DNA from: Pseudomonadota bacterium
Lineage (GTDB): Bacteria; Pseudomonadota; Gammaproteobacteria; Burkholderiales; REEB80
Direction of reading: 5' to 3'
DNA: 55,343 bases
Assembly (NCBI GenBank): GCA_018971485.1
Contig: JAGXAQ010000010.1
Span: 1 to 55,343 of the forward strand
Positions within the stretch are counted from its first letter, which is position 1; every line of letters starts with the position of its first letter. The notes beneath the pieces were generated by a model. That model saw only the letters and a program-made list of their open reading frames with translations. It was not told where the DNA came from and did no database searches. The translations under genes were made by a program, and so were the position numbers. Positions 6,431 through 33,679 of the stretch are shown here, piece by piece.

Positions 6431-6540
6431 AAAAACCAGGCCAACCCATTGCCCCATTCACGTTAGTACTGGTGAAAAAACCCGATCATGACTAAAATCA
6501 AGCAGATCCTATTTCTTTCGTCTAAGCAGAACTCGAGCAG

Positions 6541-10994: not shown

Positions 10995-11021
10995 GCATAG
11001 GGAAAAGCTATCCCGATTAAC

Positions 11022-11465
11022 CTATTTCCACTTGCAGTTTGGACAAATGCCCCTGACGGTCAGCTCTATCTCCTTGAGCTGGTAACCACCAGGCAAGGGG
11101 ACATCCACTTCAGGTTGAACACCATCAAGGCAGGTAATCTCGTCACATTTAATACAGCGAAAATGAGCATGATGATGCCAATTGTTTTCTGGAGCAGAGC
11201 CAAAACGCAACAATCGATCTTGACTGGCCACCTGATGAGCAAATCCCGCCTTACAGAGCCAGTCCAGCACACGATAAATAGTCACTCTATCAATATCAGG
11301 CCCACTTTTAAGCCGCTCCCGGATTTCATGATGAGACAGTGCTCGGCGCTCACTAATCAGCATGGCCAAAACTCGTATTCTTGCAACAGTTACTGAAGCA
11401 CCACTTTTACGTAGCATCCGTTCGGCTTCCTGAACAAAATGATCAGTGACACTAATTTTACGCAT
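11022..11465 (-). CDS. Fur-family metal-responsive repressor (Fur/Zur/PerR type)
   Basis: 147 aa. Residues ~10-85 are a winged helix with RVTIYRVLDWLCKAG as recognition region. The C-terminal dimerisation domain has HHHAHFRCIKCDEITC and a second Cys pair CPNC, giving the CxxC...CxxC structural zinc site of the superfamily. I use ATG 11465; three bases upstream is a TTG alternative. Subtype is not decidable by eye; the two Cys pairs and lack of a clear Fur-type HHDH iron site make Zur-like or PerR-like plausible. It is placed directly upstream of the photolyase, probably cotranscribed, an unusual partner. Confidence 0.85.
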   Translation of the reverse strand: MRKISVTDHFVQEAERMLRKSGASVTVARIRVLAMLISERRALSHHEIRERLKSGPDIDRVTIYRVLDWLCKAGFAHQVASQDRLLRFGSAPENNWHHHAHFRCIKCDEITCLDGVQPEVDVPLPGGYQLKEIELTVRGICPNCKWK

Positions 11466-11540
11466 CAAAAGTCTACCCTTTTAACTTTTTAAATATAATC
11501 AAGCAATCAATCCACTCCCGCAAGAAAAATATAGTTTTAT

Positions 11541-12199
11541 CCATAGGACAACAACTAGCAGATAGCCTTAAAGACAAAAAAAGACGTACGCACATTTTTA
11601 ACAAGAATGCGGAATATCTTTATCCCGCTTGGGAAACAAGTTCAGATTGCACACCAAAAAAAGCAGATCTATCCATATCAATCCATGCTGATGCTTCTAT
11701 AGATAGAAAACACCGGTTCTTCTGCCTATCTTCATCAAGACACGGGGTATCTGGCATCATGGCACGTACCCTGGCTGAACGAAAAATCAATGCAGGCAAT
11801 ATTGGAAAAATCAATCCAGGTACAAAAAACCGCTACCTTCAAATGCAATAACTCAATCTAACCCGAACAATAACAATCAACCCAAGAACTAAACTGGCTC
11901 ATAGGCTTCTTGAACATATCAGCCAACCTGAAACCATTTTCAAACCGCGTATGGAACGTGCAGGATTTGCCGTTCTCAAATCACCTGATACACCACCAGT
12001 TCTGGTCGAGACTGCATTCAATTTCCAACCCGGCCGAAGAATACAGACTTTATACCATCCATTTCCAATCAGGCTGGACTCATGCATATAACAAAATATC
12101 CTGCAGTATTTCCGCAAGAATGCTGCCATTGGTAGCCTTGTTCACGCTCTAGGTCAACCCAGCATAATCCCCTGCCAACCTGTAATGCATCTTCAATGA
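11541..12199 (+). pseudogene. Decayed N-acetylmuramoyl-L-alanine amidase (AmiC-type)
   Basis: No intact frame exists, but three frames on the plus strand give consecutive pieces of an Amidase_3 domain. At ~11594-11656 one frame reads TFLTRMRNIFIPLGKQVQIA. At 11663-11842 another reads ADLSISIHADAS and MARTLAERKINAGNIG. From ~11880 another gives RMERAGFAVLKSPDTPPVL then VETAFNFQP. A last frame ends YFRKNAAIGSLVHAL with a stop at 12197-12199. The first break falls in a run of seven As at 11656-11662, where one extra A restores the frame. The zinc-binding N-terminal DPGHGG part is missing. Intact relatives cleave the peptide from murein during daughter-cell separation. Several independent breaks make a sequencing error unlikely as the sole cause. 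Confidence 0.8.
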
Positions 12200-18201: not shown

Positions 18202-18232
18202 TTAAAACCGGCTTAACATAAGAAAGCCGGTT
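18202..18232 (-). terminator. Terminator of the NMG operon
   Basis: Perfect 9-bp stem AACCGGCTT/AAGCCGGTT with a 9-base loop, followed on the minus strand by TTTTAAG. It overlaps the stop codon of the XRE-cupin gene. Confidence 0.65.
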
Positions 18233-18872
18233 AATCAACGACGGTCAAGCTGCCGTCATAATCTTCACCGTAAATAATCAAGGCAAGAAAACGGATTGGC
18301 ACCTCAATCAATTGCTCTGGGCCATGAACAATATTGCCATCAAACATTAGCGAGTCACCTGGGGTTAATATGTAGGTATGCTGGCCATGACGATATTCGA
18401 TTTTCCCTTCTAGCATATAAATAAACTCAGTACCAGGATGCTCAAAAGTACCAAACACTTCGGATTGATCATCCATGCTAATCAAAAAGGGTTCAAATAC
18501 TTTTTTCGGGCCTAAATCATAGGCCAGCAAACGATAAGTATGCCCCATCCTGGTGCCAGCACGAACCACTTCCATGCCTTCACCTTTATGCACATGCTGG
18601 GCACCACCGGTCGGGATATTAAATTGCTTGAACAATCGTGAAAGAGTAATGCCAAATGCTTGGCACAGACGGTTAAGGGTATCCAGGCTTGTTGACGTCT
18701 GTCCATTCTCGATTTTGGAAAGCATACCTCGACTAATTGAAGCCTTTGCTGCCACATCAGCGATAGTCAATCGATTCTTAAGACGTAATTCTCGAATAGT
18801 ACGGCCAATATACTGTTCAAGGCCAGACACCTCATTTTCTGCTACAGATGGTTGAAGCGCATCATCGTTCAT
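18231..18872 (-). CDS. XRE-family regulator with C-terminal cupin sensor
   Basis: 213 aa from ATG 18872; a GTG at 18905 is an alternative. Residues ~15-75 form a helix-turn-helix (LTIADVAAKASISRGMLSKI). Residues ~110-205 form a cupin barrel with HPGTEFIYMLEGKIEYRHG and GDSLMFDGNIVHGPE. Proteins of this build, such as PuuR and related regulators, usually repress amine or amino-acid catabolic genes and sense a small metabolite in the cupin. As last gene of the mgd-gmaS-mgs operon it is the obvious local regulator, possibly sensing an NMG pathway intermediate. The palindrome CGAGTACTCG sits just before the ATG. Confidence 0.85.
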   Translation of the reverse strand: MNDDALQPSVAENEVSGLEQYIGRTIRELRLKNRLTIADVAAKASISRGMLSKIENGQTSTSLDTLNRLCQAFGITLSRLFKQFNIPTGGAQHVHKGEGMEVVRAGTRMGHTYRLLAYDLGPKKVFEPFLISMDDQSEVFGTFEHPGTEFIYMLEGKIEYRHGQHTYILTPGDSLMFDGNIVHGPEQLIEVPIRFLALIIYGEDYDGSLTVVD

Positions 18873-18952
18873 TCGAGTACTCGTTAAATGACAGGAAAGG
18901 GGCACCTCACTATATCAAGAAGCCCCATTTTCTGCCAAATAAATCGTCAAAC

Positions 18953-20299
18953 TCAAATTGCAGTATATCCTGGAATCCAGTTGGTTCCTGCAAGCGGCAA
19001 GCGTGCCATTGCGGCTGATTCAACCGTCAGGGCGACCAGATCCTCACGTTCAAGATGATGTACATTGGACTTTCCACAAGCACGTGCGATTGTAGTTAAC
19101 TCCATATTCAACGTCTTGAAGTAATTTTTGACACGACGAGCACCAACTTCTGGAATAAGACGCTGTTCCAGAATTTCATCTTGGGTCGTCACGCCTACCG
19201 GACATTTACCCGTATGGCAATGATGACAAAACCCAGGCATAGTCCCCAATTTGGCATATTCCTCACTGGCATTAACATGCTGGCCTTCATGGTTAACCCA
19301 TGTAGAAGAATTGCACCCGAGAGCAAACAAGACCCCCTGGCCAATTGAGACTGCATCCGCACCTAACGCTAATGCCTTGGCAACATCTGCCCCAGAACGA
19401 ATGCCACCTGAAACAATCAGCTGAACCTTATCCTTCATATTCATTTCTTCAAGCGCTGCAACGGCCTGTTGAACTGCAACAAGGGTTGGCACCCCTACAT
19501 GCTCGATAAATACCTTTTGTGTAGCCGCCGTTCCTCCCTGCATCCCGTCAACCACCACTACATCAGCTCCAGCATGAACAGCCAGCTTCACATCATTAAA
19601 CACTCTAGTGGCCCCAATTTTGATATAAATGGGTATCTGCCAATCTGTCAGCTCACGTAATTCCTGAACCTTAATTGTCAAGTCGTCCGGGCCGGTCCAG
19701 TCAGGATGCCGGCAGGCAGAGCGCTGGTCCACTCCAGCTGGTAAAGTCCGCATTTTTGCAACCCGGGCCGTAATTTTCTGCCCCAAAAGCATCCCGCCAC
19801 CGCCTGGTTTTGCACCCTGGCCGATGACAAGTTCAATGGCATCCGCCCGTCTTACATCATCAGGATTAAAACCATAGCGAGAAGGCAAGCATTGATAAAC
19901 CAGTGTTTTTGAAGATGCACGCTCTTCAGGTGTCATACCTCCATCACCAGTAGTCGTCGACGTGCCCAGCTCAGTTGCTGCTGCTCCCAATGCTTCTTTC
20001 ACATTGGCCGAAAGTGAGCCAAAACTCATTCCTGCTATTGTAATCGGGATTTTCAGCTCAATTGGCTTTTTGGCAAACCGTGTTCCCAGTACCGTCGTAG
20101 TCGTGCATTTTTCACGATATCCTTCCAAGGGGTACCTGGATGCAGAGCCTGCCAGAAAAAGCAAATCATCAAAAGAAGGCAAATGACGTTTTGCTCCTAA
20201 GCCACGAATATCATAAAGACCCGTAGCAGCCGCATGCTGAATATATTGAATCGTATCGTGACCAAACAGAAAGGATTCTTCTTTAGATAAATTAGACAT
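18953..20299 (-). CDS. mgsC: N-methylglutamate synthase subunit C (FMN/Fe-S glutamate synthase domain)
   Basis: 448 aa from ATG 20299, chosen because CAGGAG lies 7 bases before it. It matches the FMN-binding central domain of glutamate synthase: TTTGDGGMTPEER, GQGAKPGGGGMLLG, VDGMQGGTAAT and VSGGIRSGADVAKALALGAD for FMN and substrate. CHHCHTGKCPVGV near residue 360 supplies cysteines for an Fe-S cluster. In the NMG pathway MgsABC moves methylamine from gamma-glutamylmethylamide or free methylamine onto a 2-oxoglutarate-derived carbon skeleton to give N-methylglutamate. It follows mgsB with one base between. Confidence 0.92.
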   Translation of the reverse strand: MSNLSKEESFLFGHDTIQYIQHAAATGLYDIRGLGAKRHLPSFDDLLFLAGSASRYPLEGYREKCTTTTVLGTRFAKKPIELKIPITIAGMSFGSLSANVKEALGAAATELGTSTTTGDGGMTPEERASSKTLVYQCLPSRYGFNPDDVRRADAIELVIGQGAKPGGGGMLLGQKITARVAKMRTLPAGVDQRSACRHPDWTGPDDLTIKVQELRELTDWQIPIYIKIGATRVFNDVKLAVHAGADVVVVDGMQGGTAATQKVFIEHVGVPTLVAVQQAVAALEEMNMKDKVQLIVSGGIRSGADVAKALALGADAVSIGQGVLFALGCNSSTWVNHEGQHVNASEEYAKLGTMPGFCHHCHTGKCPVGVTTQDEILEQRLIPEVGARRVKNYFKTLNMELTTIARACGKSNVHHLEREDLVALTVESAAMARLPLAGTNWIPGYTAI

Positions 20300-20300
20300 C

Positions 20301-21023
20301 TTAGTACTCCTGATTGGCATCAGCATTCCAGTGATAAAGTCCACGTGCCGAAGCTACTTTTTTAAATTCTTTCGGTTCATAACCAAAACCTGCGCGGGCC
20401 AATAAATCCTTCAGAATCCGGTGATCATCATCTGTCATTGATTCAATCTGTGCATCTGCACCTAAAGACTTAATCTTGCCACGGACATAAATGACAGCTT
20501 CATAAATGGAATCTCCCAGACCATCACCTGCATCGCCACAGATCACCAGATGGCCAGCCTGGGCCATGAAAGCAGAAAAGTTGCCCACTGATCCGCCCAC
20601 AACAATATCCACCCCTTTCATGGAAATACCACAGCGTAAACTCGCATCACGCTCTATAATGACCGTACCACCATGACCGGATGCTGCAGCTGACTCAGAA
20701 GCAAATCCTTTCACACGAACAAGACCAGACATAATGTTTTCAGCGACTGACCAACCCACATTTCCATGAATCGTGACATGGGCTTGCTTGTTCATGCCTG
20801 CACAAAAATATCCTGCGTGACCTTCAATATCAACATTGACCGGTGCGTCAAGACCCACGGCAATGTTGTGGGCTCCATCTGGATGAGTAATTTTGACAGA
20901 ACCAAGTTTTTCTTTCTCCAGATCATGATGTAAGAACTGATTCATCTCCCTGACTGTCGTCTGGGATAAGTCAAACAGAATAGTCTTGTCACCACTTTCC
21001 TTTTTGCGGGCTAAATTGTCCAT
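20301..21023 (-). CDS. mgsB: N-methylglutamate synthase subunit B (GXGXG domain)
   Basis: 240 aa, corresponding to the C-terminal beta-helix (GXGXG) domain of glutamate synthase as a free subunit. Repeats such as GHAGYFCAGMNKQAHVTIHG, GHGGTVIIERDASL and GNFSAFMAQAGHLVICGDAG are visible. The domain is structural and brings the amidotransferase and synthase sites together. It overlaps mgsA by 13 bases and has a GAGGAG RBS within the mgsA end, so translation is coupled. Confidence 0.92.
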   Translation of the reverse strand: MDNLARKKESGDKTILFDLSQTTVREMNQFLHHDLEKEKLGSVKITHPDGAHNIAVGLDAPVNVDIEGHAGYFCAGMNKQAHVTIHGNVGWSVAENIMSGLVRVKGFASESAAASGHGGTVIIERDASLRCGISMKGVDIVVGGSVGNFSAFMAQAGHLVICGDAGDGLGDSIYEAVIYVRGKIKSLGADAQIESMTDDDHRILKDLLARAGFGYEPKEFKKVASARGLYHWNADANQEY

Positions 21024-21910
21024 ACATACAACTCCTCAGGAGCAGGTTCGAACAAACGTGCATTTTTAATGTCAGGCAATCGCGCTAAAGAACGGAACTC
21101 GGATGAAATAGCCACATAATCATCATTTTCAGCCACGACTGCCGGTTTACAGGCAAACGGGTCTCGCACCAGCGCCAGCTTGTCCTCAGTTCCAATCAAA
21201 AACGTATAGAATCCATCCAATTCCTCAAATCCCGCCTTTAATGCTTCTTCAAGCGTATCCCCCTCACGCATGCGCCACTCCAGAAAACGGCAGGCCGCCT
21301 CAGTATCATTATCGGTAACAAAACGAATACCAAGAGGTTCAAGTTTTTTTCGGATACTGTAGGGATTGGATAAAGATCCGTTATGAACCAGACAAAAATC
21401 ATGTCCCGCCGTAAAAGGGTGGGCGTGCTGGGGAGTCACGGCCGATTCAGTTGCCATTCTGGTATGGCCAACCAGATGCGTACCATGTAACTTGCTAAAA
21501 TCATACCGGTTCGCCACCTGCTCTGGTGTACCAATATCCTTGTATATATCCATGCTGTTTCCAACACACAGGATTGTCAGCTGATGGCGATAGTCCTGGA
21601 CCAGCCATTCACGAACGGATTCCCACTGAACTGATGTGAGCAAAATTGCATGCCGGCCTTTGATGTTTAACTCAGCATGGCTACCGAAATGGTGATCGAA
21701 TGCTTTCTCAAATGCCTTCCAATCAAACTCGGAGCTTAAGGTGAAGAGGTTAAACTTAATCTTTCCCTTGGCAAGCTTATCACCAAACACAGCAAGCCCC
21801 GCCGAGTCCGGCCCGCGCTCGGTCATGCCAATCAGCATGGGAAGCATCAGCTTTCCCAGCTCATCACGCATGGCCGGATTCTTAACGAGCAATCCAACTA
21901 TTCCGCACAT
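21011..21910 (-). CDS. mgsA: N-methylglutamate synthase subunit A (class II amidotransferase)
   Basis: 299 aa from ATG 21910. This start is required because Cys2 of MCGIVGLL must become the N-terminal nucleophile after Met removal; GAGGAG sits 5 bases upstream, and the GTG two codons earlier would bury the Cys. Class II (Ntn) amidotransferase features are RGPDSAG, HTRMATESAV and NGSLSNP. In MgsABC this subunit would release the amine from gamma-glutamylmethylamide. It follows gmaS by 18 bases. Confidence 0.92.
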   Translation of the reverse strand: MCGIVGLLVKNPAMRDELGKLMLPMLIGMTERGPDSAGLAVFGDKLAKGKIKFNLFTLSSEFDWKAFEKAFDHHFGSHAELNIKGRHAILLTSVQWESVREWLVQDYRHQLTILCVGNSMDIYKDIGTPEQVANRYDFSKLHGTHLVGHTRMATESAVTPQHAHPFTAGHDFCLVHNGSLSNPYSIRKKLEPLGIRFVTDNDTEAACRFLEWRMREGDTLEEALKAGFEELDGFYTFLIGTEDKLALVRDPFACKPAVVAENDDYVAISSEFRSLARLPDIKNARLFEPAPEELYVWTI

Positions 21911-21928
21911 GTGCACTCCTCTCTAAAA

Positions 21929-23296
21929 TCAGAAAAACTCCAGGTAACGTTTGACTTCCCAGTCGGAAACATGCCGCTGATAATCCACCCATTCCATTCT
22001 TTTCAATTCAATAAACTCACCCACAAAAGCCTCACCCAGCGCTCCAGAAAGAACTTTATCGTTCTCAAGTGCTACCAGGGCTTCATTCAGGTTCTGAGGC
22101 AATAGCCCAATTTTTTTAGCTTTAAGTTGAGCCGGTGAATAATCATATAAATTCTCATTCTGGGCAGCGCCTGGATCAATCTTGTTATCCAGCCCATCAA
22201 GGCCGGCAGCAATCAGTGCCGCTGTCGACAGATAAGGATTCGTACTACCATCAGGTAACCGCAGCTCAAGACGACCCGGCGGGATCCGGACCATAGTTGA
22301 ACGATTATTATTACCATAGCTAATATAGGCTGGTGCCCAGGTTGCTCCGGTTAACGAGCGTCCAACCACAAGGCGTTTATAAGAGTTGATGCTTGGACAG
22401 GCCAATGCAGTCAAAGCACGGGCATGTTTAAGGATACCGCCTAGAAAGTGATAGGCCATGCCGGAAAGATCGAGCCCTTGAGCATCAGTTTTATCCTGGA
22501 ACAGGTTGCCATTACGCGCATCACTCATTGATATATGCATATGAGTGCCATTACCAGGCAGATGCGAAAATGGTTTAGGCATAAATGAACAGACGAGTCC
22601 AAGTGAATGGGCAATTTCTGATGCGGCCATTTTGAAAAAAATATAATGGTCCGCCGACGTCAAACAATCAGTATAGGTATAGTTAATCTCAAACTGGCCA
22701 TTGGCATCTTCATGATCAATCTGGTACACATCAATGCCTGTTGCAATCAGGGACTGGGTCAGTTTGTCCAGGAATTCATGTGTTCTGGCCAACCCTTTAT
22801 AGTCATAACAAGGCTTTGCCAGGCAGTCAGATTCCAGATGAGGCTGTATTTTCCCGTCAGCATCTCGAACGAGAAGCGAGAACTCCGGTTCAATACCCGT
22901 GTTCATAGTCAGACCCCGTTCAGTAAGCCTCTTGATCTGATTCTTGAGAATAACTCTTGAGCAATATTGATGAGGGGCATCATTCACATGGCCATCACAG
23001 ACAATTCTGGCATAACCTGGCATCCAAGGAATAAGACTTAAAGTACTAAGATCACCCTTTGCCATATAATCCGGGCCATGAGGCCCAATCCCCATTCCCC
23101 AGATGGCAAAAGCTGCAAATCCAGCTCCGGAGGTAAGAATTTCTTCAAAGTGTGTGGCAGGAACTGCCTTGGTCTTTGCCGAACCGTGGATATCCACAAA
23201 CTGGGCCAAAACATATTTGACCTGATTGGCTTCAATCCATCTTTTTGCATCTCCTGCGCTGGTCAATTTATGATCCAGCTTCATTGCCGCTGTCAT
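21929..23296 (-). CDS. gmaS: Gamma-glutamylmethylamide synthetase (glutamine synthetase type III-like)
   Basis: 455 aa from ATG 23296 (CAGGAG six bases ahead). It has the glutamine synthetase fold: Glu ligands in GIEPEFSLL and [26 protein letters not shown], then [19 protein letters not shown] and [18 protein letters not shown]. GmaS joins glutamate and methylamine with ATP to form gamma-glutamylmethylamide, the first committed step of the NMG route. Assignment over an ordinary glutamine synthetase rests on its place between mgdABCD and mgsABC. It lies 38 bases after mgdD. Confidence 0.93.
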
Positions 23297-23334
23297 ATTA
23301 GTCTCCTGTTTATAATAATTCCCCCTCTTGTGCA

Positions 23335-24000
23335 TCATGCCAGACCCGGGTAAAGCCTGTTACAACCCACAGCACCCCCCCCCATTTCCAGCGTAATACC
23401 AAAAAGCGTTTCCCAAAAATAATGACCAAAGGTCCCATCACACCAAATTTTCCATGAGTATCTTTCATTAATTTTGTTTTGTACCATCACGACACTCACA
23501 CCAACCATATTAGTCATCACAACCTGCCTGTTTTTCTCATCGATTTCTGCAAAATTGACATTACAGGTCTGAGAAAGAAAATCATTCTGTTTCGTACCGC
23601 ATAAAATTAAGGCTGCATCCTGCCTGCGGACAGGATAAGCTCCCTCGATACCATCCATACCCAGCTTCTCGGAAATAAGCCTTGCTATCCCTCCCGAAGG
23701 GCCGTCTTCAATAAAAAACTCGGTCATCCCCAGCCGCATTAAAATCCCACCACCCTCGAGGGGTTCCCAATGGTTGGGCCGTTGCGGTACAGGCAGGCCA
23801 AGGGATGACAGGAATTCCATGGCTAAAGGACCTTTCAGGCCAGTTCGCTCTAGAAAGCTGCAGTCTGCAAGGCCGATGGTTTCCAGGTTCAATGACTCTG
23901 CCTGGCTATCTGCCAGTCTTAAAAAGGTACGCATATCGCCTACCTGGCCAAAATCACCCGGCAACTGACTAAAACAATGCTCAATCGGACTTTGTCTCAT
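23335..24000 (-). CDS. mgdD: N-methylglutamate dehydrogenase subunit D (SoxG-like gamma subunit)
   Basis: 221 aa from ATG 24000 (AAGGAA RBS). It is related to the gamma subunit of heterotetrameric sarcosine oxidase and to part of the folate-binding GcvT fold. Conserved points are [26 protein letters not shown], and a C-terminal half around [12 protein letters not shown]. It is the smallest folded subunit next to MgdC and helps hold the folate site. Gene order mgdABCD is the standard one for this enzyme; it starts 10 bases after mgdC. Confidence 0.88.
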
Positions 24001-24010
24001 CGTGTTTTCC

Positions 24011-26962
24011 TTATACCTTCTGTCGCATTCCATCCGGATCATAAAAGGGAGTGGCAACGATTTGTGCCGGTACCAGGGCTCCATCAGATAGACGGAACTG
24101 AACCATTCGCCCTATTTCGTTCAGGTCCGGGCGAACGAAGCATAGGCCAATGACACGACCTAATGCTTCCGAATCAGTGATACTGGTAATACGTCCAGCT
24201 ATGTCTCCTGCTTCAATCAATAGATGAGACTCTTTCGGCAATTCACCACGATAGTTTTCCGCAAGAGCAAAACCTGCCAGGACCTGTTTCCTCTCAGTAG
24301 CCTGGGCAATTTTCAGGCTACGCTGCCCTATAAAAAATGGTTTGTTCATCTTGACTGCCCAGCCACAGGCCGCATCAAATGGGTTTGTTAACCCATCAGT
24401 ATCCTGGCTGACGATGATATGCCCTTTCTCGAGCCTTAAAATCCGCTGGGCTTCAACGCCAAACGGCTGAATCCCGTACTTTTGCCCCTCTTGCATCAAT
24501 AAATCCCAAACATAAGCGCCTTTCTCGGAAGGAACATGGATTTCATAACCTAACTCCCCCACAAACCCCACGCGCATAATCCGGGCAGAAACCCCCCCGA
24601 TTTCACACGTCCTCAAAGCCAAATAGGGAACAGATGCATCACTTACATCTATATTGCAGTGAGGAGCCAAGACTGCCCTGGATTTTGGTCCGGCAAGATT
24701 CATGGCCGCCATATACCCTGTAGCATTGACAATACCCACATTCATCTTCCAGAGCAGGGCCCATCGATTCATCTCACGATAAATTTGTGCAGAGCCAGTG
24801 GTAGTCGTTGTTACAAAGAAATGCTCCTGCGCCAGACGACCCACTACTCCATCATCAATAACTACTCCCGTTTCATCCAGGCCAAGCGCATAACGTGTCG
24901 TGCCTACTGCCTGTTTTGCAAAAAGCCCGGTATACATTCGCTCAATAAACAAAACAGCATCCGGGCCAAAGATTTCAATTTTTCCCAAGGTACCGACATC
25001 AATCATGCCTACATTAGTTCTGACACTACGCACTTCCTGACGGATTGCTTCTATACGGGATAGACCCTCGATCTGATAATATTCAGGACGCTTCCAGTTG
25101 CCTGCATCCATGAAAACCGCACCTAATTCCTGATGACGGTGATGCATTGGTGTCAGACGTTCAGGGGTGAAACCTTTTCCGGCCAGATGGGACAACTTGA
25201 CAGGATGGAAAAAAGGTCTTGCTGTCGTTGTCCCAATTTCATCGATATTTTTGCCTTTTAGCCTTGCTAGGATACGAATGGCATTCATATTAGAATGCTT
25301 ACCCTGTGACGGTCCCATGCCAACCGTTGTGAAACGTTTCATAAGTTCTATATTGTCAAAAGCTTCCTGGACGGAGACATAGAAGTCCCGCAAATGGAGA
25401 TCTTCATCGAAATCAACAAAGTTCATCCCCTTGGGGTGGGAAATAATAGGATAGGGATGAGTGGGGCCTGAAGGTTCTGCAGGCACATCCACTCGCTTTT
25501 GCTCTACGACATAACCTGCTTTTTGAGCAGCCTCAAGCCCGGCCCGCTCACCATCCAATAGGCGTGATGAAAGAGTATAAACACCATTGACACGTCCGCA
25601 GGCAAAAATGGATTCCGGCAAAAGATCAGGAACAAACTGTTCAATCTCATGGCTATAACGCATTTTTGTTCCGGCCTGGTATAACAAATTAGCTGCCGGA
25701 GCATAACCAACCGCCATCAAGATGGCATCACAGGAAAACGTCACTCCCCCTGCCTGCTCTATCTCTCCTGCAGATGAAAGTCTTTTTACCACAGCTGCGG
25801 ATACCCCATACCTGCCTGGTTCAGGTATGGCTTCATAAATACAGTGGCCCGCAAGAATACGTATTCCCAGCCCTGCAGCCAACTCATGCCAGTGGCTCAA
25901 CTCACCCTCAGGACGCATATCAACAATTGCAGCAACTGAAGCTCCACCTGATACCATGTCCAAAGCGGCACGATAGCCAGCACTATTCGAAGTGAGAACA
26001 ACAAAATTTCGACCCACCCGAACTGCATACCGGCGCAGCAACCGCTGAGCAGCAGAAGCCATCATCACGCCAGGCAAATCGTTATTCCTGAACACGCAGG
26101 GCTGTTCATAGGAGCCAGATGCAACCACCACTGTTTTAGCCCGCATTTTAGTCATACGCTGATCATCCACCAGCGCAATCCAATTATCACTGTAGTAACC
26201 TGCTGCCAGGGTTCCTGCCCATATTTCGATCTTTTCACAGGCGGTTACTTCACTCAGCAACCTGCCAAGCAAGGCCGGGCTTTCATCCATCCCACCATAA
26301 TCATAAGTCAAGCTTCCACCTGGTCGAACATTCTCATCCACCACAACCACCTGAGCCCCTGCTTTCGCCGCTGCAAGAGCTGCACTCAATCCAGATGGAC
26401 CTGAACCTATTACCAGCACGTCAGCAAATGCATACCGTTTAGCCGTGTAACGGCGCGGTGTCTCAAAATTGACTTTACCTAGCCCCGTTAGCGTACGGAA
26501 CATCTTCTCCCACATCGGAAAAAGCCATTTAGGTGTATGAAACGTCTTGTAGTAAAATCCGGCCGGTAAAAAACGGGACAAACAATTCATGTAACGACCC
26601 CGATCGGACTTAAGCCCGCCGAAGGTGTTTACCGTACGAAGCTGCATACCATTCTGTGCCAGAACTACATCTGCTCGTATGGTTGGATCCTGATCATCCT
26701 GCATCATGGTGTTAATATCATGATTAGACATGGATAAAATACCGCGTGGCCGATGATATTTAAAACTACGGCCCATAAACAGGTTTCCTGATGCAGCTAT
26801 GGCACTACTGATGGTGTCTCCCACAAACCCACTATATGTTTTTCCTTCAAAAACAAAATGTAGCGGCTGATTTCGATCAATCCATTCTCCATCTTGCCTT
26901 GCCATGCGATTTTTTTCTAAAGCAGCATTGCTAGCCGCCTGTTGATTGCTTAAATCAGTCAT
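24011..26962 (-). CDS. mgdC: N-methylglutamate dehydrogenase subunit C (SoxA-like alpha subunit)
   Basis: 983 aa, the full alpha-subunit size. Residues ~20-125 form a small N-terminal domain (FVGDTISSAIAASG, FKYHRPRG). Residues ~155-500 form an NAD/FAD-binding oxidoreductase with VLVIGSGPSGLSAALAAAKA and the second Rossmann signature in VVVASGSYEQP. Residues ~600-975 form a GcvT-like folate domain (GMIDVGTLGKIEIFGPDA, GYEIHVP). This subunit passes electrons and captures the methyl-derived formaldehyde on tetrahydrofolate. It overlaps mgdB by 8 bases. Confidence 0.93.
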   Translation of the reverse strand: MTDLSNQQAASNAALEKNRMARQDGEWIDRNQPLHFVFEGKTYSGFVGDTISSAIAASGNLFMGRSFKYHRPRGILSMSNHDINTMMQDDQDPTIRADVVLAQNGMQLRTVNTFGGLKSDRGRYMNCLSRFLPAGFYYKTFHTPKWLFPMWEKMFRTLTGLGKVNFETPRRYTAKRYAFADVLVIGSGPSGLSAALAAAKAGAQVVVVDENVRPGGSLTYDYGGMDESPALLGRLLSEVTACEKIEIWAGTLAAGYYSDNWIALVDDQRMTKMRAKTVVVASGSYEQPCVFRNNDLPGVMMASAAQRLLRRYAVRVGRNFVVLTSNSAGYRAALDMVSGGASVAAIVDMRPEGELSHWHELAAGLGIRILAGHCIYEAIPEPGRYGVSAAVVKRLSSAGEIEQAGGVTFSCDAILMAVGYAPAANLLYQAGTKMRYSHEIEQFVPDLLPESIFACGRVNGVYTLSSRLLDGERAGLEAAQKAGYVVEQKRVDVPAEPSGPTHPYPIISHPKGMNFVDFDEDLHLRDFYVSVQEAFDNIELMKRFTTVGMGPSQGKHSNMNAIRILARLKGKNIDEIGTTTARPFFHPVKLSHLAGKGFTPERLTPMHHRHQELGAVFMDAGNWKRPEYYQIEGLSRIEAIRQEVRSVRTNVGMIDVGTLGKIEIFGPDAVLFIERMYTGLFAKQAVGTTRYALGLDETGVVIDDGVVGRLAQEHFFVTTTTTGSAQIYREMNRWALLWKMNVGIVNATGYMAAMNLAGPKSRAVLAPHCNIDVSDASVPYLALRTCEIGGVSARIMRVGFVGELGYEIHVPSEKGAYVWDLLMQEGQKYGIQPFGVEAQRILRLEKGHIIVSQDTDGLTNPFDAACGWAVKMNKPFFIGQRSLKIAQATERKQVLAGFALAENYRGELPKESHLLIEAGDIAGRITSITDSEALGRVIGLCFVRPDLNEIGRMVQFRLSDGALVPAQIVATPFYDPDGMRQKV

Positions 26963-27221
26963 CGCTCATCTTTCCGGTATAGAGATAAGTCCTTAACACG
27001 ATATCCCGTTCCGTATCGCGTTCTGCAATAAACCATACCCCGGATGCTGTATGATGCCACCACTCCTTCTTAACACCCGGGGCTCCACTTCGGTTGAATA
27101 CATAATCTGCCCACTCCTCATCAGTTGCTTGCTCAGGATCGGGCATCTCCCTAAACTCTCCCCCCCAGGTAAATTCCTGTAGAGGCCGGGTTCCATTTAT
27201 AGGGCAGGTTAGTAATTTCAT
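26955..27221 (-). CDS. mgdB: N-methylglutamate dehydrogenase subunit B (SoxD-like delta subunit)
   Basis: 88 aa, matching the delta subunit of sarcosine oxidase in size and pattern (FTWGGEFREMP, TDEEWADYVFNRSGAPG, VWFIAERDTERDIV). In sarcosine oxidase this subunit binds zinc through three Cys and one His. Here Cys6 and the central His remain, but the second Cys (position ~9, now Asn) and the C-terminal Cys are absent, so zinc binding is doubtful. It starts two bases after mgdA stops and overlaps mgdC by 8 bases. Confidence 0.88.
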   Translation of the reverse strand: MKLLTCPINGTRPLQEFTWGGEFREMPDPEQATDEEWADYVFNRSGAPGVKKEWWHHTASGVWFIAERDTERDIVLRTYLYTGKMSDD

Positions 27222-27223
27222 GG

Positions 27224-28465
27224 TTAATGTCCTACAGAAGCCGCACCTTTTTCACCGGTCAAATCCAACTCCTTAAATCTAGACAGGCGAAAGGTACGAA
27301 TCAATTCATGATCCTGATCATGGGCAACGGTGTAAGACATGGTCTCGCCACATACCGGTGTAGCCTTAAATCCCCAGGTACCCCACCCAGCATCAATATA
27401 AAAACCCTCAATGGGTGTTTTACCCATAATAGGAGCAAAATCTGGCGTCATATCTGCCATACCTGCCCACTGACGATTGACTTTCGTGTTAGAAAGGAAG
27501 GGGAACATATCCAGCATATGTGCTGTCAACCCTTCAGTAAAATCAAGCGTTGAACGAGTCGAATGAATCTCGTATGGATCTACGGAAGCCCCCATAACCA
27601 GTTCCCCCCGGTCAGATTGGGAAACATATACATGCAAACTCCCGGAAACAATAATGGTGTCAAGCCAAGGCTTGATAGGTTCGGTCACACAAGCCTGAAG
27701 CGGTTGAATCACTATCGGGGTGCGGATTCCGACCATTTGGGTGATACGCGGGGTTGATCCGGCAACGGCGCACAAGACCTTCGGAGTTGAAATATACCCT
27801 CTGCTGGTATCCACCCCTCTTACCTTGCCATGCTTAACGTCAATCCGGGTCACTTCGGTCTTCTGGAATATCTCGACTCCCCTCATATCTGCACCACGGC
27901 CATAGCCCCATGCAACCGCATCATGTCTCGCTACAGCACCTGGCTTATGGTATAAAGCGCCATGTATCGGGGAATGGCCTGAACAATCCAGATCCATCTC
28001 AGGAACCATGCGTCTGATAAAATCACGATCAACTACTTCAGATTCCACTCCGAGATGCTTGTTAACCTCAGCACGCCACCTCATGGTTCTCATCGCTGAA
28101 TCCGTATGGGCAAGCGTAAAATGTCCACGTGTAGAATAAAAAAGATTAAGATCAAAATCCTGAGAAAGATCCTGGAATAACTTGACACTTCGGTCATAAA
28201 AGGCAACACCTTCCGGTGTTAAATAATTAGACCTTACAATTGTTGTGTTGCGGCCTGTATTTCCACCTCCCAGATAATTTTTTTCAAGAACACAGACATT
28301 TTTAATACCATGATTCCTGGCCAGATAATATGCAGCAGCCAAACCATGGCCTCCACCTCCTATGATCACTACATCATAGGTTTTCCCAAGCTGGTCATGT
28401 TCAGTAAACATGGGGGGCTCCGGATGCTTGTGACTCAATGCAAATCGAAGAAGACGTAGTGGCAT
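27224..28465 (-). CDS. mgdA: N-methylglutamate dehydrogenase subunit A (SoxB-like beta subunit)
   Basis: 413 aa. The FAD-binding Rossmann motif VVIIGGGGHGLAAAYYLA lies at ~31-48, followed by YLGGGNTGRNTTIVRSNYL, which carries the flavin-attachment region of the sarcosine oxidase beta subunit. The C-terminal end has GFYIDAGWGTWGFKATPVCG. This subunit oxidises the N-methyl group of N-methylglutamate, giving glutamate and formaldehyde or methylene-tetrahydrofolate. It heads the second transcriptional block, with a promoter at 28535-28563. Confidence 0.92.
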   Translation of the reverse strand: MPLRLLRFALSHKHPEPPMFTEHDQLGKTYDVVIIGGGGHGLAAAYYLARNHGIKNVCVLEKNYLGGGNTGRNTTIVRSNYLTPEGVAFYDRSVKLFQDLSQDFDLNLFYSTRGHFTLAHTDSAMRTMRWRAEVNKHLGVESEVVDRDFIRRMVPEMDLDCSGHSPIHGALYHKPGAVARHDAVAWGYGRGADMRGVEIFQKTEVTRIDVKHGKVRGVDTSRGYISTPKVLCAVAGSTPRITQMVGIRTPIVIQPLQACVTEPIKPWLDTIIVSGSLHVYVSQSDRGELVMGASVDPYEIHSTRSTLDFTEGLTAHMLDMFPFLSNTKVNRQWAGMADMTPDFAPIMGKTPIEGFYIDAGWGTWGFKATPVCGETMSYTVAHDQDHELIRTFRLSRFKELDLTGEKGAASVGH

Positions 28466-28718: not shown

Positions 28719-29015
28719 CTATACCCCTACTGAATCTGAGGGCGACGAGAGCATCTGCCTACGCCAGGCCTCCTGCCTAATTCGGGCAAACTTGTAGGCA
28801 TCCATCACGCTTATAGCGTAAATAAAGACACCTCCGGCATAACTGGCAATAAAACCTGAGCCTGGATGGGCAAAGTGAGCCGTAACCAGACCAAGGACAA
28901 CCATAAAGGTATCCATTGCTAAACCTCGATTGGGTTGGCCATTCAATACTTGCCCCAGGCCTGGCAGCAGGATGGAAATACCCATGACCAGATAGGGATG
29001 ATACGGTTTAGGCAT
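28719..29015 (-). CDS. Small membrane protein of the methylamine transport operon (98 aa)
   Basis: 98 aa from ATG 29015, which overlaps the previous gene by 8 bases. Two to three hydrophobic segments are visible (LVMGISILLPGLGQVLNGQP; DTFMVVLGLVTAHFA; GFIASYAGGVFIYAIS). The GxGQxxNGQ pattern resembles TM2/DUF5683-type small membrane proteins. The C-terminal tail is basic and soluble. No function is known; it is the last gene before the mgd promoter. Confidence 0.65.
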   Translation of the reverse strand: MPKPYHPYLVMGISILLPGLGQVLNGQPNRGLAMDTFMVVLGLVTAHFAHPGSGFIASYAGGVFIYAISVMDAYKFARIRQEAWRRQMLSSPSDSVGV

Positions 29016-29700
29016 ATTTATATTGATCCTCGTGAACAACTCCTGCCTGTTCGAGTTCGGAATGGATCCGGACAGACCACTCAATGAGATTACGCACGAA
29101 ACCAGCATCTAACCTAGATTGATCAAAATTGACATACCGCATGGTTGTATAAGAAGCCCTGCTAGCTTCTTTAGCCTGACAAACCAGCCGAACCCCATTA
29201 TGGCCCATTGTTAGCTCCTTCATATGTGTATCTTCAAACAGGAGTGGGATCATCTGCCTTACCCGATCAACCCACAACTCTGAGTCTACGCCTTCGGCTC
29301 GCAGAATCGCATGTTGTAGCCAGGTTTCCGGAACAGGTAAGCTCAAGGGTAAAAGCCAGGCTGGTGAATAGAATTCCGTATTATCCGGCCTGACCAGATA
29401 GTCAATCGTTCCTTTCAATTGCAAGGGAGAATTCAGGCTGACCACAAGCCATAAAGAAGGCAGTTTTCTAAAGGCGGTCGTATCTACAATCAGCTCAAGA
29501 CGTACAGTTTTCTTATTATAACTTCCAGTCAATTCAGGATAACCGCTTAAAGTCTGGGTAATCTTGTAATCCTCAAAAAGAGGCAAACAATCATCAAAAA
29601 ACAACAAACGTCTCGTTTTTGCAATTTTCTGATCATGAAGAAACCGCCAGCCCAAATAAAAAAACAGGACCAGAAGTAAGATATAAACAAATGGGTGCAT
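29008..29700 (-). CDS. Unknown single-pass membrane protein (230 aa)
   Basis: 230 aa with one N-terminal membrane segment (FVYILLLVLFFYLGWRF, residues 4-20). The remaining ~200 residues are soluble and mixed alpha/beta, with a short charged linker after the anchor. I do not recognise a family. A GAGGG RBS precedes the ATG. The place in the operon between the universal stress protein and a small membrane protein suggests a role linked to methylamine uptake or sensing, by position only. Confidence 0.65.
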   Translation of the reverse strand: MHPFVYILLLVLFFYLGWRFLHDQKIAKTRRLLFFDDCLPLFEDYKITQTLSGYPELTGSYNKKTVRLELIVDTTAFRKLPSLWLVVSLNSPLQLKGTIDYLVRPDNTEFYSPAWLLPLSLPVPETWLQHAILRAEGVDSELWVDRVRQMIPLLFEDTHMKELTMGHNGVRLVCQAKEASRASYTTMRYVNFDQSRLDAGFVRNLIEWSVRIHSELEQAGVVHEDQYKYA

Positions 29701-29720
29701 CCATTGTCCCTCTGGAAAGA

Positions 29721-29743
29721 GGGCCCGCCACTTTTGCGGGCCC
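29721..29743 (-). terminator. Hairpin between usp and the 230-aa gene
   Basis: Perfect 8-bp stem GGGCCCGC/GCGGGCCC with a 7-base loop, just after the universal stress gene. On the minus strand it is followed by TCTTT, too short for full termination, so it may reduce read-through and lower expression of the downstream genes. Confidence 0.55.
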
Positions 29744-29756
29744 TGATTTTACTGAA

Positions 29757-30191
29757 TTAACGTACTACCGTGACGGGGCAGTGCGCCAAGCTTACCACTC
29801 GCGAAGCAACCGAACCTAGCAAAAGCTTGGCAACTTCAGAGCGTCCCGTTGATCCCACTACAATATGCTCAATCTCATGTGCACTGGCATATTTCACAAT
29901 CGCTTCAGGAATATTGTGGCTACCGACAGCTGCAAGGGTTATCTGGGTTAACCCTGCTTTTTTTGCAACAGACTGGGCATCAACCAGATCCTTGTGTACC
30001 TGCCAGTCAACTGCATCCATAATATTGCCATCCCAGCTTCGAACCGGATCCATAACGGAGCCTTCTTCCACAGGATGAACAACCAGGAACGTTAACGGGA
30101 TTTTCAATCGATGTGCAAGATCCACACTATAAGCCACCGCTTTCATGGATGCATGCGAACCATCAGTTGCACATAACACTTTCTTGTCCAT
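29757..30191 (-). CDS. Universal stress protein (UspA family)
   Basis: 144 aa, single Usp domain. It starts KVLCATDGSHASMKAVAYSV and ends with GSTGRSEVAKLLLGSVASRV, the ATP-binding G-x2-G-x9-G-S/T pattern, so it is an ATP-binding type. Usp proteins are often encoded beside transporters and are thought to regulate them. The RBS AGGGGGAAAC is identical to that of the 55-aa gene in the same operon. It lies 8 bases after the permease. Confidence 0.9.
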   Translation of the reverse strand: MDKKVLCATDGSHASMKAVAYSVDLAHRLKIPLTFLVVHPVEEGSVMDPVRSWDGNIMDAVDWQVHKDLVDAQSVAKKAGLTQITLAAVGSHNIPEAIVKYASAHEIEHIVVGSTGRSEVAKLLLGSVASRVVSLAHCPVTVVR

Positions 30192-30199
30192 GTTTCCCC

Positions 30200-31594
30200 C
30201 TAATATCCTTTAGGCCGAGGCCAGGGCATCGTAAACTGATCTCCGCGTTTAACATACTGATAGCGATGAAAACTAAACCAGAGTGACGCTACAATGAAGA
30301 AAGCCATAATGGACAGCAATTGACCGCCGTAGCCTAGATAGGTTGCAAAGTAAACCGTAACACATAACAAGAACAGCATAACGGCTGGCAAGGGATGAAA
30401 GGGGTGAATATATCCTCGATGAATCGAACCAAGAGGCCACAACCTTCTGAATCGGACCATATTAATGGACATGAAGGTGTACCCAAGCAATCCGGAAAGT
30501 ATCGAGAAGGTAATGATTTGATCCAAAAGATTCGTAAAGGCAAATGATACGGCAATAGGAATCAAAAACAGGATCGAACGGTATGGGGTACGATAATGTG
30601 GATGAACCGCACCAAATACCGGTGGCATATAACGGTCCCTGGACAAGGAAAACCAGGCACGGGAAGCATCATTGATACAACCGTTTGCAGAAGCAAGATT
30701 GGAAAAAACAGTTGCTACAAACATGATAACCTGCATCCAGGTACTATTCGTAACTCGAGCTGCATCATAAAGCGGCGTTGTAGCCTGGCCCAAATATTCC
30801 CAAGGTAACAGGCCAGAACAGATATACCAGGTCAGTGAAGCGGCAATGACCAAAGTAATCATGCCGCTCATCGTGCCTAAAGGGATGGAGCGTGCTGCTG
30901 ATCGACATTCCTCAGCAGCCTGGCATGTCCCCTCAATTCCCAGGTAATACCACATTCCAAACTGAAAAGCGGCAATGATACCTATCCAGCCATAAGGTAA
31001 TCCGTGAATCAAATCAGCATGGTGCAATACAACCCCAGGTGACCAGGGCGAAACGCCAAAGAAAACTAGAATAATGGCAATAAATGCAAATGCGGTAATG
31101 ACAAAATTAAAGGTCAAGGTAACAAAAACCCCTCGATAATTCAGCCAGGCCAGGAAAATGATACATAAGAATACGAACGGTTTGGGATCAAGGTTGGCCA
31201 CACCAAAATTTCCAGCCACCTCCTGGAGCAGATCGCCAAAAACTGTTGCGTCTGCCGCTTCAAGCATCGTATAGGCCAGAACAAGATACAAGGCGACATT
31301 GAATGCCATGAGGGGGCCTATGATATGCTTGGCCTGAGTATACTGCCCCCCTGCTGCAGCAACCGTTGAGGTCACCTCGGAGTCAATCATGGCCACACAG
31401 GTATAAAGCAGGCCAATCACCCAGCAGGCTATTAATGAGCCTAACGCACCACCCTTGGCCACAGAAAAATTCCAGCCCATGTATTCACCGACCAGAACTA
31501 TCCCGACACCTAACCCCCAAATATGTATAGGACTCAGAACCTTCTTCAGGGCAATCTGATGCTGCTTTGGAACTTCAATCACCTGCTCGCTCAT
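30200..31594 (-). CDS. APC-superfamily permease, ethanolamine/amine type
   Basis: 464 aa with about 12 membrane segments. It begins the membrane part with GLGVGIVLVGEYMGWN, like ethanolamine and amino-acid permeases of the APC superfamily. Other points are TVAAAGGQYTQAKHIIGP, GMWYYLGIEGTCQAAEEC (the helix 6 region) and NGCINDASRAWFSLSRD. Its position directly upstream of the NMG genes makes methylamine, or a related amine, the likely substrate; the exact substrate is inference. Its ATG overlaps the stop of the 55-aa gene (ATGA), and AAGGAGG sits ahead of the start. Confidence 0.85.
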   Translation of the reverse strand: MSEQVIEVPKQHQIALKKVLSPIHIWGLGVGIVLVGEYMGWNFSVAKGGALGSLIACWVIGLLYTCVAMIDSEVTSTVAAAGGQYTQAKHIIGPLMAFNVALYLVLAYTMLEAADATVFGDLLQEVAGNFGVANLDPKPFVFLCIIFLAWLNYRGVFVTLTFNFVITAFAFIAIILVFFGVSPWSPGVVLHHADLIHGLPYGWIGIIAAFQFGMWYYLGIEGTCQAAEECRSAARSIPLGTMSGMITLVIAASLTWYICSGLLPWEYLGQATTPLYDAARVTNSTWMQVIMFVATVFSNLASANGCINDASRAWFSLSRDRYMPPVFGAVHPHYRTPYRSILFLIPIAVSFAFTNLLDQIITFSILSGLLGYTFMSINMVRFRRLWPLGSIHRGYIHPFHPLPAVMLFLLCVTVYFATYLGYGGQLLSIMAFFIVASLWFSFHRYQYVKRGDQFTMPWPRPKGY

Positions 31595-31758
31595 TTCCCG
31601 GCCTCCTTCTGTGTGAGCTCTTCTGCACCTTCTCTGGAACTCATGAGAAAAGACTCATCATATTGTTGCTGAACATGCCAGGTATCATAAATCATCCAGG
31701 CGGCCATCAATCCTGAAATCGCCCAGGATAAATCTGAAAAAATTTGCCAGAAACCCAT
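31591..31758 (-). CDS. Small single-pass membrane protein (55 aa)
   Basis: 55 aa: MGFWQIFSDLSWAISGLMAA is followed by WMIYDTWHV as one membrane segment, then a charged tail ending EAGK. The RBS AGGGGGAAAC is well placed. The stop overlaps the permease ATG as ATGA, a classic sign of coupled translation and often of a subunit pair. It is short enough to be missed by length-limited gene callers. I know no family; it is probably an accessory subunit of the permease. Confidence 0.65.
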   Translation of the reverse strand: MGFWQIFSDLSWAISGLMAAWMIYDTWHVQQQYDESFLMSSREGAEELTQKEAGK

Positions 31759-31766
31759 GTTTCCCC

Positions 31767-32153
31767 CTATGGCCTATCGCCGAATTTTTCACGAATAACT
31801 TCCCGGTATTCTTTATCCGAGATCTTAAGCATAAAAACGTAATATCCAATGATGACAAGCGCGGTTAAACCCAACACCGGCCAACTGATACTATATTCAA
31901 ATCGAGTCTGGATAATAGGTTGAGCCTGCTGCGGGGTATAACCTAGCTTTTTCCATTGTCCAGCTTCATAAGTATTCTGGTTCAATGACTGCCAGGTCAC
32001 CTTCTGGCTAGAATTTGAGCTGTTGCCGTTATCCTTGCCTTGCATAAACAAGGGGGCATACAAGCTCACATAAACCAGTACAAGAATGAGGATGCAATCC
32101 ACAAACTGGCCTAGCTTGCTTTGGATTTTTGGAACAAAATGTGCCTTTGCCAT
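31767..32153 (-). CDS. Small two-pass membrane protein (128 aa)
   Basis: 128 aa from ATG 32153 (GGAG seven bases ahead). Membrane segments lie at ~18-37 (CILILVLVYVSLYAPLF) and ~88-105 (WPVLGLTALVIIGYYVFML). A 50-residue Asn/Gln/Ser-rich loop sits between them and probably faces the periplasm. The C-terminus is charged. No family is recognised. It lies 8 bases before the 55-aa gene and 10 bases after the 102-aa gene. Confidence 0.65.
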   Translation of the reverse strand: MAKAHFVPKIQSKLGQFVDCILILVLVYVSLYAPLFMQGKDNGNSSNSSQKVTWQSLNQNTYEAGQWKKLGYTPQQAQPIIQTRFEYSISWPVLGLTALVIIGYYVFMLKISDKEYREVIREKFGDRP

Positions 32154-32163
32154 GATTTTTCTC

Positions 32164-32472
32164 CTAAGCCGCTTTTTTGTCACGGGCAGCTTCTGCTCGC
32201 GCCAAATCCAGATTTACAATATCGCGCTCATAAATCCATTCCTTATCTTCTTTATAATGACGAATCATGGCTGTCATCGATGAAGAATTGAATACAAGAA
32301 GAAAAAGCGCGGCGACTATCTCGACAATCCTGAATCCAGGATCCTTGAGGAAATTAAACATCTCATAAAAAACAAATCCGACCGATAACCAGACTGCAGC
32401 AATCATTGCTCCAGCAAACCAGATATCACTTAAGTACATTTTTTCTACTCTTTCAGACATACGTTGCTGCAT
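32164..32472 (-). CDS. Small two-pass membrane protein, first gene of the transport operon (102 aa)
   Basis: 102 aa with two membrane segments (IWFAGAMIAAVWLSVGFVFY and VEIVAALFLLVFNSSSM) and a charged, Ala-rich cytoplasmic tail. AGGAG is 7 bases before the ATG at 32472, so the first Met is used rather than Met5. No family is recognised. It starts the operon behind a strong promoter at 32592-32620. Confidence 0.7.
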   Translation of the reverse strand: MQQRMSERVEKMYLSDIWFAGAMIAAVWLSVGFVFYEMFNFLKDPGFRIVEIVAALFLLVFNSSSMTAMIRHYKEDKEWIYERDIVNLDLARAEAARDKKAA

Positions 32473-33067: not shown

Positions 33068-33679
33068 ATGGACATGTCTCATCATAAACTGGTGCAACAA
33101 CGACGATATCGAATTATTTTTCTCACCGAAAAAAACAGACGGTATCTTAATTTACAGAAAAGACTACTGGAATCCGACCGTTTTGAGATGATAGGTGAAG
33201 CTTCCTGTATATCTGATGGCATGCTTCTAGCAAAATTATGTGCCCCGGATCTTCTTCTTGTTTCTGCAGGGCTAGGCAATGCAGATAACCAGAATCTGAA
33301 AAACACGTTTCAGCAAATCACGCCCGAATGCCAGATACTTTTCCTACAGGACGAAATTCAAGCAAGCAGGCGATGCAATCATCAAAACCCCGATCCAATA
33401 GTGACGATTAACGATACCGCAGAAATACTATACGCAAAATTGCTTGGCACAAAAAAACAAGCCGGTGAACACTACCTAACAAAACGTGAAGAACAAATTC
33501 TCGCCCTACTGGCAACCGGACAATGCAACAAGCTCATCGGTCGGGCACTGAATATCAGCGAAGGCACGGTCAAGGTACACGTCAAACATATTCTTAAAAA
33601 ACTAAAATTACGGACACGGCTTGAAGCTGCCCTATGGATTCTTTCACATGCACCGAAAAACCCATTATCACTGACATAA
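33068..33679 (+). CDS. Orphan LuxR/NarL-type regulator with degenerate receiver
   Basis: 203 aa. Residues ~12-125 have the size and strand pattern of a response-regulator receiver. However, the phosphorylation site region reads PDLLLVSAG, with Ser in place of the usual Asp, and the acidic pair of the first strand (FLTEKN) is also missing, so phosphorylation by a kinase is unlikely. Residues ~138-195 form a good LuxR helix-turn-helix (LTKREEQILALLATGQ, NISEGTVKVHVKHILKKL). No kinase gene is nearby. It is divergent from the amine transport operon and is the best candidate to bind the TACCCCT site between them. Confidence 0.85.
   Translation: MDMSHHKLVQQRRYRIIFLTEKNRRYLNLQKRLLESDRFEMIGEASCISDGMLLAKLCAPDLLLVSAGLGNADNQNLKNTFQQITPECQILFLQDEIQASRRCNHQNPDPIVTINDTAEILYAKLLGTKKQAGEHYLTKREEQILALLATGQCNKLIGRALNISEGTVKVHVKHILKKLKLRTRLEAALWILSHAPKNPLSLT

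Follow-up and report, generated by a model that had tools for sequence, protein, structure and literature searches.

Carriers with small membrane partners are already known; an APC-family carrier with a fixed set of five small genes appears to be new. Such a set was found in a stretch of 55,343 nucleotides (the window), positions 1 to 55,343 of contig JAGXAQ010000010.1 of assembly GCA_018971485.1, a bacterium of the order Burkholderiales whose genome comes to 1.93 Mb in 35 contigs. Here, an operon of seven genes (the module) lies beside genes that fit the N-methylglutamate (NMG) pathway of methylamine use. We consider it reasonably probable that this operon specifies a multi-component importer of methylammonium, dedicated to that pathway.

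Within the APC family, the nearest described case is GkApcT. It was crystallised as a heterodimer with MgtS, whose single transmembrane (TM) helix packs on TM5 of the carrier, and GkApcT made without MgtS transported less substrate, with similar initial rates (excerpt of PMC5803215). As proposed for the module, this is an APC carrier with a small partner of one TM helix. However, MgtS is native to E. coli and was picked up from the expression host, and that excerpt describes no conserved gene set (PMC5803215). The pair is a precedent for a one-helix partner of an APC carrier, though a host-derived one.

A second comparison is with TtfA, a membrane-anchored protein with a cytoplasmic C terminus that binds MmpL3 and is needed for MmpL3 transport (excerpt of PMC6593404). 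The module protein that we call M230 resembles it in modelled fold and predicted membrane anchor and, as far as that excerpt describes TtfA, in its predicted cytoplasmic C terminus. MmpL3, however, is an unrelated lipid transporter of the RND family, and M230 and TtfA are 7% identical. M230 also fits, anchor helix included, chain 4 of the structure 7tm3, presumably CCDC47, which is eukaryotic, 8% identical to M230 and without a Pfam match to it. CCDC47 belongs to the PAT complex of the endoplasmic reticulum (ER) multipass translocon (excerpts of PMC9630114 and PMC12572126).

Two further systems are alike in gene layout or in sequence. In YjcH-ActP, a short membrane-protein gene stands just upstream of a carrier gene and overlaps it by four bases, as does the module gene S3. 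ActP, however, belongs to another family (SSS), and the profiles of S1 and S2 do not match YjcH (hhalign probabilities of 0.5% and 0.4%, below 1%, against one YjcH sequence only); the idea that S1 and S2 are DUF485 (YjcH) proteins was set aside. TIGR00908 (APC 2A0305) is the nearest curated model for the module permease, with the same superfamily and a shared TM1 motif, GE[YF].GW. Unlike its members, the window permease falls short of the cut-off, with 189 bits where 382 are required, and three true members stand without small genes.

Methylamine has been reported to induce 6-10-fold the NMG genes, together with unnamed co-clustered conserved proteins, and amino-acid permeases; the excerpt of that report does not name the module genes, and its tie to them is weak (PMC5023235). 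The open-access literature, searched mostly at listing level, gave no description of the module and no name for a methylamine uptake gene of NMG-pathway bacteria.

The genes of the module are these.

32164..32472, minus strand: S1, 102 amino acids; two TM helices predicted, with both termini probably in the cytoplasm
31767..32153, minus strand: S2, 128 amino acids; two predicted TM helices and a conserved loop of ~50 residues, TW..L.Q....QW.KLG
31591..31758, minus strand: S3, 55 amino acids; one predicted TM helix and a conserved SSREG-like tail
30200..31594, minus strand: APC-family permease, 464 amino acids; nearest curated family TIGR00908, below its cut-off
29757..30191, minus strand: universal stress protein (Usp), 144 amino acids; motif G2xG9xG[ST]; an optional member
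29008..29700, minus strand: M230, an N-terminal TM anchor and a TtfA/CCDC47-like domain, probably cytoplasmic
28719..29015, minus strand: M98, a small membrane protein weakly like DUF5683, DUF6677 and DUF7533

An earlier note on this DNA had described a compact set of seven genes of these sizes upstream of the NMG cluster. This is what the window holds: seven open reading frames (ORFs) at 28719-32472, all on the minus strand, in the order S1-S2-S3-permease-Usp-M230-M98, with 253 bases between M98 and mgdA. The ATGA overlap (four bases) that the note saw between the 55-residue gene and the permease is also there. Its spacing of 8-10 bases applies to S1-S2 (10), S2-S3 (8) and permease-Usp (8), but not to Usp-M230 (56) or to M230 and M98, which overlap by 8 bases. 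Likewise, the 230-residue "membrane protein" of the note has one N-terminal helix, but the remainder is a soluble domain and not polytopic.

A strong GC-rich hairpin (29720-29744; nine pairs, eight of them G-C) lies in the 56-base gap, and has a terminator-like score only on the opposite strand. It may set the relative expression of the two halves of the operon. Scans of the promoters and terminators gave counts near those of shuffled sequence (11 against 10.1, and 6 against 4.4).

Conservation of the module and its association with mgsB

Among 300 genomes of the same order, M230 is present in 14, the source genome included. At the 13 other loci, S1, S2, S3, the permease, M230 and M98 are all found in the same order (13/13), and Usp is found in five. 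NMG genes lie within 13-16 kb in 12 of these; the exception is L028 (locus labels are ours), in whose genome (G253) mgsB is on a different contig.

Profiles built from this set, with the M230 of L021 left out of alignment and profile for its in-frame stop, were then used to scan loci in named genomes. These were the best 80 (68-95% identical) of at least 565 relatives from a permease-alignment scan; six of the 80 (L029, L034, L042, L059, L063 and L071) are the same contigs as six order-level loci used for the profiles. The 80 loci span alpha-, beta- and gammaproteobacteria, in genera that include Methyloversatilis, Methylophaga, Methylotenera, Paraburkholderia, Methyloligella, Methyloceanibacter, Roseovarius and Hyphomicrobium. 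Gene order is identical, on one strand, in all 80. S2, S3 and the permease were detected at every locus, M230 at 79, S1 at 78, M98 at 76 and Usp at 31, and the loci that lack a core member are those interrupted by a contig end. The identical order in 80/80, with the co-occurrence in 13/13, rules out chance clustering. Pairwise correlations between the distance matrices of module proteins range from 0.69 to 0.86; they have no external control, and no conclusion is drawn from them.

The module also occurs on plasmids. Twenty-two plasmid records contain the permease; 15 of these are from Aminobacter or Sinorhizobium. In the record of one Aminobacter aminovorans plasmid, the annotation has "amino acid permease" for the carrier and "hypothetical protein" for each of the five accessory genes, which were identified by profiles.

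The earlier note had proposed a search for the same gene set next to mgd/gmaS/mgs in other genomes; small genes absent from such clusters in relatives, or unlinked to them, would speak against its reading. In flanks of up to 10 kb, 58 of the 80 loci have at least one NMG-like gene, 53 have three or more and 56 have an mgs gene. Where the module is unlinked, the mgsB search covered 20 of the 22 loci (all but L043 and L102), and 18 of those 20 genomes carry a full-length mgsB elsewhere (51-71% identity). The outcome that would have spoken against the note's reading was thus not observed.

A fixed sample of 398 genomes of the phylum gives the same picture (E limits: S2 0.001, permease 1e-60, MgsB 1e-60, GmaS 1e-100). 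S2 and the permease occur in the same 13 genomes (Fisher 1e-24) and are adjacent by coordinates in all 13. mgsB is found in 43 genomes, all 13 module genomes among them, and none of the 355 mgsB-free genomes has the module. This association has p 4e-14 by genome and 5e-6 by genus (6/30 against 0/182 genera), uncorrected for relatedness. gmaS is found in 37 genomes, including 12 of the 13. Module genes are found, then, in mgsB genomes and not elsewhere, with the L094 genome as a possible exception.

Might the small genes simply be common companions of APC permeases? A specificity control took 15 TIGR00908-like permeases, with 1.5-kb flanks, from seven module-bearing genomes. S1, S2, S3, M230 and M98 stand beside 7/7 module permeases and beside 0/8 of the other APC permeases, three of which score above the ethanolamine-permease cut-off; small genes as general APC partners are ruled out by this count. 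Against their own profile, the module permeases score at least 895 bits and the other permeases at most 155, a gap that makes the module permease a well-separated subfamily.

The carrier and its companions

The window permease matches AA_permease_2 (PF13520) with 94.2 bits over residues 29-418, above the gathering score of 27; 12 TM helices are expected of an APC-family carrier. Its best NCBIfam match is the ethanolamine permease TIGR00908 (188.8-189.2 bits; the next family has 128), and its closest PDB sequence match is GkApcT, at 78 bits. The TM1 motif LVGE[YF].GWN is present in 81/81 copies (the window and the 80 loci), and SGEYFGW occupies this position in permeases that adjoin a EutB-like ORF, itself recognised by eye.

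None of S1, S2, S3, M230 and M98 has a Pfam match above cut-off. By hydropathy, S1 has two TM helices in 78/79 copies, S2 has two in 80/81 and S3 has one in 78/81, the window copy of S3 being below the threshold. Few lysines and arginines lie between the S1 helices, and both S1 ends are therefore probably cytoplasmic; the same counts give a less clear orientation for S2. The C-terminal tail of S3 reads SSREG in 63/81 copies and SS.EG or SAREG in the remaining 18. S1 and S2 do not match each other when their profiles are compared. Weak Pfam matches of S1 (FA_desaturase in 9/14 members, best E 0.0026; DUF4153 in three, 1.9e-5) and of S2 (BCCT in 2/65, 2.5e-4) were rejected as generic matches to hydrophobic helices.

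One record joins S3 to the carrier. In L136 (Sinorhizobium meliloti Ak57 pSymB), S3 and the permease form one open frame at 5779-7398, with no stop between them. The permease keeps a purine-rich stretch and a start codon ahead of it, so the frame may give a fusion or a separate permease. No such fusion is found in the 80 named-genome loci, and this frame, from a single record, may be a recent change. The L136 module lies between gmaS/mgs-like genes and a PDR/VanB oxidoreductase with an aminomethyltransferase, an arrangement that resembles a dimethylamine monooxygenase cluster.

M230 has one TM helix in 70/79 copies, N-terminal in the window copy, and the counts of lysine and arginine place its domain probably on the cytoplasmic side. 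Alignments for S2, M230 and M98 comprised 65, 67 and 55 homologues, hand-picked from longer lists. The M230 model, made from the 67 sequences, is confident (pLDDT 92.2, pTM 0.88). Foldseek against the PDB gave one match under 0.001, TtfA (9.5e-4), followed by two translocon entries. In VIA-align, TtfA has Z 12.5 (154 residues, root-mean-square deviation 3.5 A), chain 4 of 7tm3 has Z 11.9 (206 residues, 4.3 A), chain 4 of 9i78 has Z 10.3 and chain 7 of 6w6l has Z 9.8; the next row has Z 7.4. The residue range of 9i78 chain 4 fits CCDC47 (modelled residues 76-447), and, judging by residue numbers, we take 7tm3 chain 4 and 6w6l chain 7 to be CCDC47 as well.

Searches of PDB sequences with S1, S2, M98 and M230 gave no matches or chance-level matches only, that with M230 not matching TtfA, and none of the 15 Pfam families to which the 67 M230 members have matches is that of CCDC47. 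At 7-8% identity and with no sequence match, the likeness of M230 is one of fold, not of membership.

M98 has two or three TM helices in 59/77 copies. Its weak matches are to DUF5683 (43/55 members), DUF6677 (28) and DUF7533 (15), with a best E of 5e-5, the window copy being below the DUF5683 cut-off. No Asterix-like family is among the 24 families that the 55 members match.

The Usp matches PF00582 with 89 bits. The motif G2xG9xG[ST], which we take to be that of ATP-binding Usp proteins, is present in 31 of 32 copies, and the remaining copy is cut at a contig end. In two Methyloceanibacter genomes (L087 and L093), the permease and Usp are one open frame (~9944-11833), which places Usp at the C terminus of the carrier.

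Proposed function and its rivals

The substrate, the direction, the physical complex and each accessory role we infer as follows. The APC carrier would import CH3NH3+ for the adjacent N-methylglutamate pathway (GmaS, MgsABC). S1, S2 and S3 would bind to it within the membrane, either as small subunits or to stabilise it. M230, membrane-anchored and with a cytoplasmic domain, would with M98 assemble or scaffold the carrier. Where present, Usp might bind ATP at the carrier's cytoplasmic face and tune uptake.

Several lines lead to the importer. One is genomic: the constant order at 80 loci, the co-occurrence in 13 of 398 genomes, the link to mgsB and the control in which the small genes accompany 7/7 module permeases and 0/8 others. 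A second is the carrier itself, with an amine permease as nearest family, the shared TM1 motif, and the open frames that join it to Usp or to S3. A third is comparative, from the TtfA-like fold of M230 and the GkApcT-MgtS precedent. The conserved five-gene company suggests uptake by a machine of several parts, of a kind so far undescribed among APC carriers.

Other observations pull the opposite way. The permease is below the 381.75-bit cut-off of TIGR00908, which leaves it outside that family, and AlphaFold models S2 poorly (pLDDT 75, pTM 0.32). The 80 loci are the best of at least 565 candidates, so that the comparison covers the nearer permeases, and 22 of the 80 have no NMG-like gene in the stretch available, several of these stretches being short. 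The L087 genome has only mgsB fragments (57% over residues 80-240), and L094 only a 32% match. Nine of the 13 module genomes in the fixed sample come from one family; one of the 13, G438, has mgsB but gave no gmaS match at E 1e-100. Fewer plasmids were found with S3 (19, by tblastn with a lax limit) than with the permease (22), which may reflect the sensitivity of a 55-residue query. An in-frame TAG breaks M230 in L063 (8583-9230; a metagenome-assembled genome, and the same contig as L021); the TAG may be decay or a sequencing error.

Two further points limit what the module can be. Thirty of the 43 mgsB genomes have no module (G025, G452, G584 and G651, for example). This rules out that the module is essential for the NMG pathway, and makes it one uptake route among others; in the module-free genomes, other methylamine uptake systems are still to be found. 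Usp was not found in 49 of the 80 modules and, being optional, is a tuning part at most. The earlier note had spoken of a methylamine uptake and sensing system: a multi-part transporter is the best reading of the first half, but sensing has little support, since Usp is in a minority of modules and regulators are scattered.

What if the carrier does the uptake alone, and S1-S3, M230 and M98 are only biogenesis factors that act in its insertion, assembly or turnover? We think this unlikely. M230 does resemble CCDC47, a translocon component, and the translational overlap of M230 with M98 (median gap of -4 across loci, with starts chosen by rule) fits a two-protein chaperone. But translation of S3 is in many cases coupled to that of the carrier, the two genes overlapping in 39/81 copies and once sharing a frame, which is more typical of a stoichiometric partner. 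Further, the top match of M230, TtfA, is a stable partner of a transporter, as far as the excerpted source goes.

A bolder version of the importer would make M230 and M98 a CCDC47-like bacterial intramembrane assembly pair dedicated to one carrier, and S1-S3 its obligate subunits. We hold this to be doubtful. An obligately multi-subunit prokaryotic APC carrier would, to our knowledge, be the first.

The carrier might instead work outward, as an ammonium/methylammonium exchanger or an exporter that relieves an ammonium surplus when methylamine is the carbon source. Methylamine oxidation does, of course, release ammonium, and APC carriers are often exchangers; the nearest family, however, is an amine permease that works in the direction of uptake, and we regard an exchanger or exporter as quite improbable.

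Transport of another amine or an N-methylated amino acid (ethanolamine, sarcosine, N-methylglutamate) is very improbable: the family is nearest to the ethanolamine permease, and some modules do lie amid other genes (in Paraburkholderia and Hyphomicrobium, for example; on an Aminobacter plasmid the neighbours are glyA and PEP carboxylase), but all 13 module genomes carry mgsB, and the three Paraburkholderia genomes searched encode a separate, true ethanolamine permease (709 bits).

A methylammonium importer, if that is what the conserved set encodes, is a candidate for methylamine uptake that can be tested in genera with cultured strains, such as Methyloversatilis, Methylophaga, Paraburkholderia and Roseovarius. 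If true, it would mean that a carrier of the APC family can rely on several small partners in the membrane. The TtfA/CCDC47-like fold beside a carrier hints, in addition, at a wider class of carrier-assembly factors.

Neighbouring genes and regulators

Two further features flank the module in the window.

18953..28465, minus strand: NMG pathway genes mgdABCD, gmaS and mgsABC (names given here)
33068..33679, plus strand: divergent NarL/LuxR-type regulator, a candidate regulator

Judged by their sequences, the neighbours of the module fit the NMG pathway; the names mgdABCD, gmaS and mgsABC are our assignments by gene order and family. The mgdABCD genes (23335-28465) have soxB-, soxD- and soxA-family matches, all below cut-offs, with an ORF of 249 amino acids without a family. 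gmaS matches type III glutamate-ammonia ligase with 622 bits, above the family cut-off. The mgsABC genes (18953-21916) are amidotransferase-, GXGXG- and glutamate-synthase-like ORFs.

Neighbours outside the module have weaker support across the loci, where longest-ORF calling in high-GC sequence gave spurious antisense ORFs. A specific regulator of the module was sought and rejected as not general: with home-made models, GerE-type ORFs were found at only 10/80 loci and NarX-like kinases at 9/80. The divergent regulator of the window has a copy, 53% identical and in the same position, in the sister genome L016. At the far end of the NMG cluster (18231-18905) lies an XRE-type regulator with a probable cupin domain, recognised by eye, and a homologue of it adjoins S1 in L017 and L018.

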